This document shows, in pieces, positions 23,040 to 38,461 of a stretch of 64,000 bases of DNA. Position 1 is the stretch's first letter; every line of letters starts with the position of its first letter. Under the pieces are notes generated by a model. That model was given only the letters and a program-made list of their open reading frames with translations, was not told the origin of the DNA and did no database searches. This DNA is from Candidatus Palauibacter scopulicola. Its GTDB lineage: Bacteria; Gemmatimonadota; Gemmatimonadetes; Palauibacterales; Palauibacteraceae. The DNA lies in NCBI RefSeq assembly GCF_947581915.1, contig NZ_CANPWG010000060.1:62001-126000 (forward strand), in the 5' to 3' direction. The position numbers and the translations under genes were made by a program.

Positions 23040-23052
23040 AGGGTCCTCCTAG

Positions 23053-23212
23053 TGTGGTATCGCAGAAGCCCACGGCCATTCGAGCGCCGATGCATCCGCC
23101 CCTGCGGCGTTGCTCCTCCTCTCGCAATAGCTCTGCTATTCCTCGTCGGAGCGCCTTGCAGAGATCGGCGCCTCGGCGCTCTCGGTGGCTCGCGGACTTC
23201 TGCGACACCACA
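23053..23212. repeat. Long imperfect palindrome, family member 1
   Basis: A 160-bp element bounded by 16-bp inverted arms (23053-23068 and 23197-23212, 15 of 16 matching). Further complementary blocks continue inwards (for example GAGCGCCGA against TCGGCGCTC), giving a long hairpin. It shares internal words and architecture with 35571-35747. It lies between capA and hipB. It could be a non-autonomous mobile repeat or a structured transcript. Confidence 0.6.
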
Positions 23213-23364
23213 CCAATGACGTGCCGGGGCATCCATGCCTCTCACCAACGTACGGAAAGCACCGATACGCGCGCATGCGCCGGCGGCGCGCAGAATGCTG
23301 CGAACGGAACGGCCGTGCTGCGCGGGCACTGCGATGATGGATCGTTATTATGCGTCGTATACGG

Positions 23365-33907: not shown

Positions 33908-34801
33908 TCAGCGACTCCTTTCGCGGTAGCCCCGCAGGCGGGCGAGGTTCCGGATGTCGGCGTCCGCGCCGTCCTCCCCCTTCGGGGTCTCCAGGATCTT
34001 GGGGACATGGCGCAGGCGGGCGTCCCGCATCAAGCGCCGGAACGGGCTCTCGCCGAGGCTGCCTCGTCCGATCTCCTCGTGGCGGTCCTTCCGCGAGTCG
34101 AAGGGGTGCTGCGAATCGTTCACGTGGATGAGACCCAGGCGTTCGAGTCCCAGCACGCTGTCGAACGCCTCCCAGACGCCATCGTAGTCGCCGACCAGGT
34201 CGTATCCGGCCGAGTAGGCGTGGCACGTGTCGAAACAGATGCCCACGCGTCCCCGCTCGGACTCCGGGATCCGGTCCAGGATGCTGCGGAGATTCTCGAA
34301 GCTCGCCCCGACGGTCGTCCCGGCGCCGGCCGTGAGTTCGAGGAGGACGCGGGTCGGGCCCTCCACGGCCTCCAGCGATTCGGTCACGCCCCGCGCATTG
34401 CGCGCGAGCCCCTCTTCGATGTCGCCGTCCGTCGCGTTCCCGGGATGGGTCACGAGGAAATCGAGGCCGAGACGCGCGCAGCGCCGGAGTTCGCTCTCGA
34501 AGCTGCGTTGCGACATCCGCCACAGCCGCCGGTCGGGGGACGAGAGGTTGATGAGATAGGAGTCGTGGGCCCCCGCGACCGCGATCCCGTGCTCGGCGCA
34601 CGCCGCCTTGAACGCCGCCGCCGTCTCGTCGTCGATTCGCGGCTCGGCCCACCGGTTGGGCTGCTTGGTGAAGAGCTGGAGGTTGGCCGCCCCGATCTCC
34701 GCCGCCCGCCGCGGCGCGGTCTGCACGCCGCCCGCCACCGAGACGTGGGCGCCGAGTTCGTCGCGGGCGCCTGCTCCCGGACTCTCCGGCGGCGCGCTCA
34801 C
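33908..34801 (-). CDS. nfo: Endonuclease IV (AP endonuclease, TIM-barrel)
   Basis: A 297-residue DNA-repair enzyme cutting at abasic sites. Zinc-site motifs of endonuclease IV are intact: GAHVSVAGG near the N-terminus, FLVTHPGNATDGD, LLELTAGAGTTVG, CFDTCHAYSAGYD, and the signature HVNDSQHPFDSRKDRHEEIG. The start GTG overlaps the SDR gene stop by 4 nt (GTGA). The first ~15 residues (Ala/Pro/Gly-rich) precede the fold. The neighbour genes are metabolic, so co-regulation with repair is not obvious. Confidence 0.93.
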   Translation of the reverse strand: MSAPPESPGAGARDELGAHVSVAGGVQTAPRRAAEIGAANLQLFTKQPNRWAEPRIDDETAAAFKAACAEHGIAVAGAHDSYLINLSSPDRRLWRMSQRSFESELRRCARLGLDFLVTHPGNATDGDIEEGLARNARGVTESLEAVEGPTRVLLELTAGAGTTVGASFENLRSILDRIPESERGRVGICFDTCHAYSAGYDLVGDYDGVWEAFDSVLGLERLGLIHVNDSQHPFDSRKDRHEEIGRGSLGESPFRRLMRDARLRHVPKILETPKGEDGADADIRNLARLRGYRERSR

Positions 34802-35517
34802 GCCTTCCGGGGTGGATGGGAGGGACGCAGTTCGACCCGGCTCACGTGGGCTTCCTTCGGATAGGAGAGCAGCTGCATGACCGCCGACGCGCAGTCGTCC
34901 ACGTGCAGGCGCCAGGTCCGCTCCGGCACCTGCTCCCGGCCGTTGAAGTACGTGTCCACGCTCCCGGGCATCACGATGCTGACCCGCACGTCGTCGTAGC
35001 GCACGTCGAGCAGCATCGCCTCGGTGAGTCCGAGCAGGCCGTACTTGCTCGCGTTGTACCCGGTGCCGCCGCGGAAGGGATGGCGGCTGGCGAGCGACGC
35101 GATGTTCACGATGAAGCCGTCGCCGCTCGCGCTCAGGTGGGGGAGCGCGGCCCGCGAACAGTAGAAGACGCCGCCCAGGTTCACGTCGATCTGGAGTTGC
35201 CACTCCTCGACGCTCATCTCCCGCAGCGGCTTGAAGATCCCGAGTCCCGCATTGTTCACGAGGATGTCGAGCCGGCCGAAGCGGGCCACGGTCTCCTCGA
35301 CCATGCGCTCGCAGGCGCCCGCATCCGCCACGTCGCACACGATGCCCAGCGCCCGGTCGCCGAGTTCGACCTCGGCCGCCCGCACCTCCGCCCCGGTCCT
35401 CGCGCAGACCGCCACGGAGGCCCCCGCCGCGAGCAGGTGCTCCGCGGTCGCGCGCCCGATCCCTTTGGTCCCGCCCGTCACGAGCGCGACTTTCCCCGTC
35501 AGGTTCGTCGTTCCCAT
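34798..35517 (-). CDS. SDR family oxidoreductase
   Basis: A 239-residue short-chain dehydrogenase. NAD(P) motif TGGTKGIG (residues ~13-20), NNAG at ~90 and the catalytic YNASK (Tyr and Lys) with the Ser in IASLASR. The substrate is unknown; 3-oxoacyl-ACP-reductase-like members share these features. The start ATG at 35515-35517 precedes the NLTGKVALVTGG beginning; a longer upstream frame runs into the palindromic element and is not supported. First gene of the SDR-nfo-enoyl-CoA hydratase run. Confidence 0.85.
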   Translation of the reverse strand: MGTTNLTGKVALVTGGTKGIGRATAEHLLAAGASVAVCARTGAEVRAAEVELGDRALGIVCDVADAGACERMVEETVARFGRLDILVNNAGLGIFKPLREMSVEEWQLQIDVNLGGVFYCSRAALPHLSASGDGFIVNIASLASRHPFRGGTGYNASKYGLLGLTEAMLLDVRYDDVRVSIVMPGSVDTYFNGREQVPERTWRLHVDDCASAVMQLLSYPKEAHVSRVELRPSHPPRKA

Positions 35518-35570
35518 TCCGCCCTTCTTGTTGCCCCTCTCACGTTCGATTCGAGACGCTCTCCGTGATC

Positions 35571-35747
35571 CTAGCAGGCCGTGGCAAAAGCCCCGCTGCG
35601 TTCGAGCGGCGCTGCATCTCGCCTGAATCGCTGCGCTCTGCGTCGCTCCTCGGTCACGTAGCGCTGCTATGCTCTCTCGTCGCTCCTTGTCAGGCGAGTG
35701 CTTCACCGCTCTCGGCGCTCACGCGGGGTTTTGCCACGGCCTGCTAG
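35571..35747. repeat. Long palindrome, family member 2
   Basis: A 177-bp element. Its 26-nt left arm (35571-35596) and 25-nt right arm (35723-35747) are inverted copies with a single indel, built round CTAGCAGGCCGTGGCAAAAG. Internal words resemble element 1: CGAGCG(C/G)CG followed by TGCATC, and the loop region CTCTGCTATTCCTCGTCG against CGCTGCTATGCTCTCTCGTCG. The right arm contains the TAG stop of the DUF5916 gene. Confidence 0.7.
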
Positions 35748-38461
35748 ATCGGGAGCCAGTAGGCGACCTTGAGCAGGAAGACGTGTTGCCCGCGGGAGCG
35801 CAGGCTGTCGACGAGGCGGCCGGGGTCCACGAGTTCGCCCGAAGTCCGCATGTCGGAGCGGTCCTGCTGCCACACGAGGAAGAGCGTGCTGCCCGGCTGC
35901 CACTCCCAGCGCAGGACGACGTTGCTCCGCAGAGAGAGGATGTTGAAATCCCCGTCGGGGAGCGTAAACGACCGGCCACCCTCGGTCACGTCCCAGGACC
36001 CATCCACCCGGCGGTCGATCCTCGACCCCATCTCGCCGTAGGGGAGCAGGTGCCGCTGGCCGGGTTCGAGGAGTTCGCCCAGCCCGTGGCGGCGTCCGCT
36101 CGCCGCGAACGGCTCGAAGTAGGCCTCGAGCGTGAGGTCCGGGCCGAAGGCGTAGGCGCCGCGGAGGCGGAGGGCGAGGGTGCTGCGGTCGATGGCGGAG
36201 AAGATGTAGCGCCGGTCGAACGTGGCCCGCCGCCCGCCGGACAGCGTCGTGAGGTACTGGCGCGATTCCGTTTCGCGCCGGTAGCTGGGTTGGACTTCGA
36301 GTTGGAGCGCGGACCCCGGGCGGAGCGTGAGCGCGCCGCCCACGTCGTACGCCCATCCGCCGATTTCGTCCCGCCCGTAGGACCCCCTGAGCCGGAAGCC
36401 GGTCCGGAAGGAGCGGTCGGTGGCGAGCGCGAGGCCGGCCTGCCAGCGGGCGAGCGTCTCCATGAGGGGGCCGCCGCGCGTGAGGTGGTCGCTGAGCGCG
36501 CGCGGGTGGTAGCCGCCCTCGAGCGTCGTGCGCAGGTAGTTGTGCCAGGTGGCGGTTGCCCGGGCCCCGAACGTCGTCTCGGTGCGCACGCCGTCGAAGT
36601 TCCACGAACTCGCCGAGGTGAGGCCGACCTGCCAGGCGCGGGCGAACGCGGTCGGGATCGTCTCGCGGATCGCGATGTCGGCTTCGGCCGTGAGGCGGTC
36701 CGCGTTGAACATCTGGCCCACATCGTTGATCTCGAAGCCCGGCGAGACGGCTTCGCCCTGCACGCGCCACAGCCAGCGCCGACCGCCCACCTTCTGCATC
36801 CCGAGGGCCGCGGTATACCCGGAGAGCGCGGAACGCGAAGGGTCCAGCCGCGCGGTCGCGCGGTCCGGACGCTGGAAGAAACGCGCGCTCGAGCGCTGCA
36901 CGCGCAGGATTGCATCGGGGTTCCCGCTGAGGTGCGAGAACCCCGCATGTCCCGTGAGTTCGTACTCGCCGCCGGCAAAGCGCAGGTTCCAGTCCGTGCC
37001 GCCGGCGTAGGCGCGCCACGGGAGGAGCGCGGCGAGTTCGGGACGGCCCTCGCGGCTGAGCGTGGTCCCCGTGAAGCCGAGGGTGGAACCCTCCTCCCCG
37101 AACTCCTGCTCCAGTCTCGCCACCGCGAAGGCGCTCAGCGGGGCGATCGGGACGGCGCTCTCGACCGTGTCCGTCGCGGCCGGGCGCTGCGTGAAGTGGA
37201 ACGCCCGGGCATCCTCGCGACCGGTGACGGCGAAGAGCGCGCCCACCGAGGTCCCGCCCGGGAGCCGGCCCGTGACCTTCCCCGCCCCGAGAATCGTGGT
37301 CTGATCGGGCGCGACGACGCTGTCGGCCTCCGCCCGGCCCGCGGGCGGGGCCCCGATGCGACGCGAGTAGAAGTAGCGCGGACCCAGCCCCTCCATGAGT
37401 TGGCGACCCTCCGTGAAGAAGGGGCGGCGCTCCTCGAAGACTTCCTCGAACGCGGTCAGGTTCACGACGGCGGGGTCCGCCTCGACCTGTCCGAAGTCCG
37501 GGTTGACGGTGGCGTCGAGCGTCAGGCTCGAACCGAGACCCACCTTGAAGTCCGCCCCCACGCGGGACTCGCTCCGCGTCACCACTCCCGCCATGGGACC
37601 GCCCGTGGGCGTGCGCAGATCGCCCGCCACGTAGGGGAGGAACTCAATCCCCCGGCTCCCCCGCACGCCCTCGAGTCCGGTCAGGTCGCCGAGGCGCGAG
37701 GCCCAGCCCGGCTCGCTCCGCACCACGAGTTCCCACAGCAGGTTCTCCTGCACGTCCGGCATGTAGCGGTTGATGTTCACGCCCCACGCCGATTCGTCGC
37801 CGTTGAAGCGCAGTTGCGAGAACGGCATGCGCATCTCGGCCGTCCAGCCGAGCGAGTCGCGCTGCACGCGCGCCGACCACACGGGATCCCACGTGTAGTC
37901 GCGGTTCGTCACGTTGTCCTCGGGGTGGTACCAGTCCGTGCGGCTGCCCGCCGCGTTCACCCCGAAGGAGACCGCCGTGCGCCGGTTCAGGTAGGGATCG
38001 AGCGAGACCAGCAGGCGCTCCGAACCGGTGTTCTGGTCGCGGCGCGTGCGGTAGGCCTGGATGCCGTCGGGGTCGTCCGTGTACATGCGACCGGCGATCC
38101 ACAGCGCGTCGTCGTCGAACGCGAACGCGACCTCGGTCCGCCGCGTAGCCGGCTCGCCCTCATCCGGCTCGCGCTGCCAGAACGTCGTCGCGAATTCCGC
38201 CCGCGCCCACACCGCGTCGTCCAGGCGGCCATCCAGTTGGAGCGTCCCATCGGTGTCGCGCGTGGCCCTGAGCTGCTGCCGGTCCTCCGGGCCCAGACCC
38301 TGCGCGCCGAGCGCCGGGGCCGCGGGGAGAGGGACCAGGATGACAACGGCGATGGCCAGCGAGACGCGGCGCGCGAAGCCGGGCTCCCGGATCGTGCGCG
38401 TGCGATTGCCGCGCGGACGGGCCCTGCGCGGGCAGGCCCTGCGCGAACCGTCAGCGCTCAA
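35744..38461 (-). CDS. DUF5916 domain protein with N-terminal CBM9-like module
   Basis: A 905-residue exported protein. A signal segment spans residues ~31-53 after a basic N-terminus. A family-9-like carbohydrate-binding module follows (GTLQLDGRLDDAVWARAEFA, DDDALWIAGRMYTDDPDG, WDPVWSARVQRDSLGWTAEMRMPFSQLRF). The DUF5916 region has PDFGQVEADPAVVNLTAFEEVFEERRPFFTEG and ends in a beta-barrel-like stretch with a C-terminal KVAYWLPI. Such proteins are common in Gemmatimonadota and Bacteroidota; an outer-membrane location is likely. The start is TTG at 38461, with AAGGA 8 nt upstream; it overlaps the upstream acetamidase gene by 11 nt. The stop lies inside palindrome element 2. Confidence 0.8.
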   Translation of the reverse strand: MSADGSRRACPRRARPRGNRTRTIREPGFARRVSLAIAVVILVPLPAAPALGAQGLGPEDRQQLRATRDTDGTLQLDGRLDDAVWARAEFATTFWQREPDEGEPATRRTEVAFAFDDDALWIAGRMYTDDPDGIQAYRTRRDQNTGSERLLVSLDPYLNRRTAVSFGVNAAGSRTDWYHPEDNVTNRDYTWDPVWSARVQRDSLGWTAEMRMPFSQLRFNGDESAWGVNINRYMPDVQENLLWELVVRSEPGWASRLGDLTGLEGVRGSRGIEFLPYVAGDLRTPTGGPMAGVVTRSESRVGADFKVGLGSSLTLDATVNPDFGQVEADPAVVNLTAFEEVFEERRPFFTEGRQLMEGLGPRYFYSRRIGAPPAGRAEADSVVAPDQTTILGAGKVTGRLPGGTSVGALFAVTGREDARAFHFTQRPAATDTVESAVPIAPLSAFAVARLEQEFGEEGSTLGFTGTTLSREGRPELAALLPWRAYAGGTDWNLRFAGGEYELTGHAGFSHLSGNPDAILRVQRSSARFFQRPDRATARLDPSRSALSGYTAALGMQKVGGRRWLWRVQGEAVSPGFEINDVGQMFNADRLTAEADIAIRETIPTAFARAWQVGLTSASSWNFDGVRTETTFGARATATWHNYLRTTLEGGYHPRALSDHLTRGGPLMETLARWQAGLALATDRSFRTGFRLRGSYGRDEIGGWAYDVGGALTLRPGSALQLEVQPSYRRETESRQYLTTLSGGRRATFDRRYIFSAIDRSTLALRLRGAYAFGPDLTLEAYFEPFAASGRRHGLGELLEPGQRHLLPYGEMGSRIDRRVDGSWDVTEGGRSFTLPDGDFNILSLRSNVVLRWEWQPGSTLFLVWQQDRSDMRTSGELVDPGRLVDSLRSRGQHVFLLKVAYWLPI

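Follow-up and report, generated by a model that had tools for sequence, protein, structure and literature searches.

A palindromic element at the stop codon of a DUF5916 gene, likely an IS5-type MITE whose central hairpin probably serves as an island attachment site in the genus

Results

Insertion of a palindrome at the end of the DUF5916 gene

Taken together, our sequence comparisons make it likely that the 177-nt palindrome at positions 35571-35747 of the window (the whole 64,000-nt stretch of DNA that was analysed) is an IS5-type MITE situated at the stop codon of a DUF5916 gene, and that islands of the genus use this element's central hairpin as attB. The features discussed here are the following:

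23052..23213, no strand: element 1 of the sequence-only reading, a related palindrome with a similar core and other ends
34798..35517, minus strand: short-chain dehydrogenase gene, flanking the palindrome opposite the DUF5916 gene
35571..35596, plus strand: left arm, 26 nt, CTAGCAGGCCGTGGCAAAAGCCCCGC
35571..35574, no strand: CTAG, left copy of the putative 4-bp target duplication (a duplication demonstrated at another copy)
35575..35743, no strand: putative palindromic MITE proper, 169 nt, CAGGCCGTGG...CCACGGCCTG
35659..35667, plus strand: TAGCGCTGC, 9-bp core in the central hairpin, element positions 89-97, unoccupied here and the point of island integration in other copies
35723..35747, plus strand: right arm, 25 nt, GCGGGGTTTTGCCACGGCCTGCTAG
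35744..35747, no strand: CTAG, right copy of the putative target duplication; the CTA within it forms the DUF5916 stop codon (TAG on the minus strand)
35744..38461, minus strand: DUF5916 gene, stop codon supplied by the palindrome

Direct alignment of the arms bore out the strong symmetry described in the sequence-only reading, with 26 and 25 nt differing by one indel, a single extra G, while the repeat finder reported 23-nt arms at 96%. The predicted fold of the palindrome had an energy of -104.7 kcal/mol (z = -9.34), which was equalled by none of 200 shuffles. The end motif occurs twice in the window, both times at the arms of this palindrome, against 0.05 occurrences expected. On the side of the dehydrogenase, the reading frame remains open through the palindrome (34798-35706 of the window, minus strand), and gene callers may therefore add a false N-terminus to this protein.

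The palindrome was absent from the end of the DUF5916 gene in all eight same-genus orthologues (L080-L087; 94-96% protein identity), in agreement with the earlier suggestion of an insertion; the palindrome is no long-standing portion of this gene. The accompanying idea that the C-terminus of the protein had been altered did not hold: the protein ends in ...YWLPI with its stop at the same codon as in the relatives, where TGA in the eight orthologues is replaced by TAG in the window gene and the final residues are identical. It had also been proposed that the right arm provides both the last codons and the stop. This is correct for the stop (35744-35746, CTA on the plus and TAG on the minus strand) but not for sense codons, as the last of these, ATC, uses G35747 and the relatives have the same base there. 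Compared with these relatives, the window palindrome is a recent insertion, which we read as an ordinary young MITE that happens to end a gene.

Target duplication and IS5-type ends

Comparison of occupied and empty sites pointed to a 4-bp target duplication. At L356 (genome G011) we found GAG-TTAG-[CAGTCC...GGACTG]-TTAG-GGCGG against a lone TTAG at the empty site L357 (G006), which by this alignment is an exact 4-bp YTAR duplication and the cleanest case. At the L347/L348 site the right copy was exact and the left one carried one change (L348, G010); at L059, L067 and L070 the duplication was not clean. Relatives at the empty sites of L066 and L002 had a few extra bases between TG and TA (L299-L301, L307), which could be excision footprints.

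A Tc1/mariner-IS630-type MITE would duplicate TA only. At CTAG targets the two kinds of duplication are indistinguishable, and both L067 and the L131 site (CTAG on the left, CTAA on the right) fit TA without any mutation. Yet the repeated TTAG at L356 comprises four bases and not two, DDE_3 was detected in only three of the 16 element-bearing genomes (G003, G015, G035), and the IS630-type ISs with readable ends have different ends, TAGTGT. An IS630-type transposase was thus rejected as the mover on account of this narrow occurrence and the differing ends, and we consider an origin of this type quite unlikely.

Similarity to REP/BIME palindromes was also considered. REPs are intergenic imperfect palindromes that serve as targets for insertion sequences; attC sites of integrons are imperfect palindromes recombined by a tyrosine recombinase. 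The family described here resembles both in being composed of intergenic imperfect palindromes, REPs taking ISs and attC sites a tyrosine recombinase, and, as expected of REP/BIME sequences, it is dispersed and its folded interior is conserved. Mobilization by a Y1 transposase (RAYT, IS200/IS605-like), which works on hairpins of single-stranded DNA, would however leave no target duplication, in conflict with the exact TTAG duplication at L356. Moreover, PF01797 was not found in the own genome, and just two of the 16 element-bearing genomes (G003 and G034) had it; a RAYT/Y1 transposase was rejected as the mover since it is absent from the other 14. The family further differs from REP and attC sequences by its IS5-like duplication and by having no match in Rfam at the gathering score, as determined for the window region and six family-bearing loci. 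We regard the REP/BIME explanation as very unlikely.

The closest ends were those of IS5-type insertion sequences. ISs of Microvirga and of P. putida pW2 have closely similar ends of the form CTAG-CAGGCYGTTGAAA, with CTAG on both sides and a transposase gene inside, and the Microvirga transposase scored 281.5 bits against transpos_IS5_4 (NCBIfam; cut-off 140). The same kind of IS end was present in an S. fredii plasmid and in G003. The terminal repeats, CAGGCCGTGGCAAAA vs. CAGGCYGTTGAAAA of the IS5-type ISs, are similar and non-identical, and the ends of the P. putida pW2 element read CAGGCYGTTGAA. In contrast to these ISs, which are about 1.3-1.5 kb long and carry a transposase gene, the palindrome lacks such a gene and has an interior of its own. 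No IS5-type transposase was found in the own genome; the tested transposase had a match in one of 60 genomes (G003), which leaves 15 of 16 element-bearing genomes without a relative of it, in a search that could miss more distant IS5 transposases. As MITEs can outlive their partner transposase, the missing enzyme lowers, but does not exclude, membership among IS5-type MITEs.

From its ends and the 4-bp duplication we read the palindrome as a non-autonomous, non-coding IS5-type MITE. It would have inserted at a YTAR/CTAG target overlapping the DUF5916 stop codon and duplicated 4 bp, as the CTAG on both ends of the window copy suggests, the mover presumably being an IS5-like transposase supplied in trans.

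Central hairpin as the probable island attachment site

In searches for relatives of the element, many family matches stopped at element position 97 or started at position 89. In the loci fetched, the palindromes were split by inserts of 5.6-7.4 kb where one contig held both ends (L131, L132, L133). The left junction passes from TAGCNCTGC into AAGTCGG and the right one from GCAGAA into TAGCNCTGCTAT. In the first set of loci the junction was present in 11 of 12 left halves and in 10 of 11 right halves; in L150 (left) and L144 (right) it was not aligned by the method used. Across 60 genomes, the left junction pattern gave 13 matches in eight genomes and its reversed control none, whereas the right pattern, for which one mismatch was tolerated, gave 13 matches, 11 of them in the genus, and one control match. 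The two right matches from outside the genus (G035, G059) proved to be unsplit palindrome-like sequence. The palindrome half ended at position 97 in 13/13 left matches and started at position 89 in 11/11 same-genus right matches. attL and attR thus overlap by the 9-bp core, which is also present in the empty site.

The clearest pair of occupied and unoccupied sites was that of G002 and G010. The two G002 halves with 60-bp flanks were identical (156/156 and 157/157) to a single intact palindrome of G010, on which they overlap by exactly the 9-bp core. An intact palindrome occupies this site also in G008, and none was found there in six other genomes checked. The two junctions also occur in the own genome, one at a terminus of contig C21 and one at a terminus of C52, each with the core TAGCTCTGC, and the flanks of these contigs are adjacent in relatives; the genome thus appears to carry one unassembled island.

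An intact palindrome or a remnant of it was seen in a relative at three island sites: L136/L146, where G010 and G008 have it intact; L132, where the own genome retains a short remnant; and L140/L141, where G009 has a 48-nt match. At the remaining island sites with pairable flanks, the flanks of the relatives were contiguous and palindrome-free, which fits palindromes that are themselves polymorphic. The order in which palindrome and island arrived is thus directly visible at few sites. Palindrome pieces in G014 and G011 were tried as same-site copies of L138 and rejected, as they lie at different positions. Separately, several genomes have contigs that break off no more than about 300 bases into the left end of an island (L134, L137, L138, L140, L149), as if the left ends were multi-copy or variable in the population.

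An alternative is that the palindromes spread together with the islands, so that solo copies are excision scars, or that island and palindrome ends form one transposon. The relatives having neither island nor palindrome at several island sites are in line with it. On the other hand, G035 and the named genomes described below contain palindromes with such ends, while relatives of the integrase were found only in the genus and G058; solo palindromes possess their own target duplication; the two islands of G006 differ, with integrases that are 91% alike; and G010 has the G002 site in its exact, unsplit state. We find joint spread very unlikely.

In the favored reading, where the hairpin of a MITE acts as attB, the attP of the island (...GCAGAA-TAGCNCTGC-AAGTCGG...) would recombine with the centre of the hairpin (...TAGCNCTGC-TAT...). 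Recombination would split the palindrome into attL (positions 1-97) and attR (89-177), a splitting seen by sequence in other copies, with the neighboring integrase as the presumed catalyst. The window copy would then be an unoccupied putative site with an intact core that could receive an island.

Integrase and island cargo

The integrase beside the left half at L131 contains Arm-DNA-bind_3, Phage_int_M and Phage_integrase domains, as does that of L132; we take these three-domain tyrosine integrases of the islands to be P4-type. Of 60 genomes searched at E 1e-30, 14 had relatives of the L131 integrase, namely 13 from the genus and G058. Among 30 integrase loci fetched, the five whose integrase is 87% or more identical to that of L131 all adjoin a half palindrome, and no half palindrome was seen at the other 25. 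Specificity for the palindrome hence seems confined to one integrase subclade.

DUF5128 beta-propeller-like proteins recur as cargo: those of L131 and L132 pass the curated cut-off, and those of L141 and L143 fall narrowly short of it. The L133 island encodes a NikA/MobC-like mobilization protein; none was recognised among the tested proteins of L131, L132, L141 and L143. Judged by gene content, the inserts are apparently integrase islands, with a mobilization gene recognised in one only. No defence genes were identified among nine proteins tested, of which those from L135, L139 and L145 are host flank and not cargo. In viral contigs neither the integrase nor the DUF5916 protein had a relative and the core pattern had no match; a Pseudomonas-type palindrome half matched twice.

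Distribution of the palindrome family

The genome-wide search proposed in the sequence-only reading, which we ran with the whole 177 nt, identified a dispersed repeat with 24 matches in the own genome. These correspond to 21 places, as two matches pair the window palindrome with its own opposite strand and two others belong to one short element; three are full length. Many of the shorter copies resemble decayed pieces. Palindrome matches were present in 16 of 40 relatives examined: in 14/17 genomes of the genus (own genome included; G005, G012 and G013 had none), in 0/7 from other genera of the family, 0/8 from the order and 2/8 from the class. In G035, which belongs to another family, we observed head-to-tail arrays of up to about five palindromes with a period of about 171-174 bp (L111, L112, L114, L115, L117, L120), the inner junctions being shorter than the outer CTAG ends.

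Beyond these relatives, named genomes contributed at least 118 stretches with palindromes of about the same length and TAGCAG-C-GT-G--AA ends, among them Pseudomonas, Planctomycetota, Acidobacteriota, Deltaproteobacteria and others. Many of the cross-phylum palindromes (L151-L268) have an asymmetric inner motif, GCGTT in one arm and CCTTG in the other, which breaks their symmetry.

Element 1 had been assigned to the same family as the palindrome studied here. Its core, architecture and similar length agree with this assignment, but its ends (CTAG-TGTGGT) do not, and by these features it represents a sister subfamily and not a second copy. The palindrome L064 of G034 shares the core as well and likewise has CTAG-TGTGGT ends. 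IS630-type ISs of G003, G015 and G035 have similar ends, CTAGTGT. The two subfamilies may use the ends of two different IS families.

Folded interior and covariation

Ungapped mirror pairing of same-length relatives (38 of length 164 and 31 of length 146) gave little signal, which we attribute to stems offset by bulges. We then aligned 22 of the 31 Pseudomonas-type rows of length 146 and derived the consensus structure from the same alignment in which it was tested. Changes on both sides occurred in 16 of 47 consensus pairs, 79 cells showed compensatory change vs. 24 in shuffles, and 97.8% of cells were paired vs. 90.1% in shuffled and 37-52% in slid controls.

These compensatory changes, together with the fold z of -9.3, would be expected also of a host regulatory or terminator RNA located after genes, whose folded transcript is under selection; many palindrome copies do touch stop codons. 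However, Rfam gave zero matches, copies are polymorphic among sister species, and arm-to-arm conversion can likewise produce compensatory changes. CTAG, moreover, is scarce in the window (24 vs. 65 expected) and overlaps TAG stops, so target choice may bring copies to stop codons without selection. We therefore give a host RNA little credence.

The conserved folded interior exceeds the needs of a MITE, although arm-to-arm conversion could yield it without selection. In a broader proposal, the palindromes of about 146-177 nt with TAGCAG-C-GT-G ends would constitute one multi-phylum family of folded recombination substrates. Their co-varying inner stems and central hairpin would be kept because tyrosine recombinases recombine hairpin DNA, in an attC-like manner, and they would be self-spreading, general-purpose attachment sites used by islands in many phyla. 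We consider this unlikely.

Discussion

tRNA genes are the usual targets of tyrosine-integrase integrative elements, and the sites at which islands integrate are commonly regarded as fixed genes. The islands described here resemble integrative and mobilizable elements, with an integrase at one end, an att core at both and, in one case, a NikA/MobC-like gene. They differ from these in that their target is a dispersed mini-transposon, not a fixed gene.

The closest described counterpart of the transposon itself is MITEPsy1 of P. syringae, which is bordered by terminal inverted repeats, probably derives from IS5 and duplicates 4 nt (CTAG or YTAA); it is reported to transpose actively and to have similar sequences in other bacteria (PMC3189936). 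Both elements are small and non-coding, with terminal repeats and an IS5-type 4-nt duplication; MITEPsy1 differs in its length of 100 nt and its 18-nt repeats of other sequence, and no attachment-site role is described for it there (PMC3189936). Open-access PMC text yielded no description of a MITE as attB or integrase attachment site, nor of these ends. The unusual part is the putative use of the palindrome family as attB.

In this genus a mini-transposon appears to scatter docking sites and a family of integrases to use them. The number and position of such sites would then evolve by transposition, and the system would offer an attB/attP pair that is multi-copy in nature and whose 9-bp core is defined. 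The wider palindrome family is large, spans several phyla and is unmatched in Rfam, and it makes selection on the folded strand testable.
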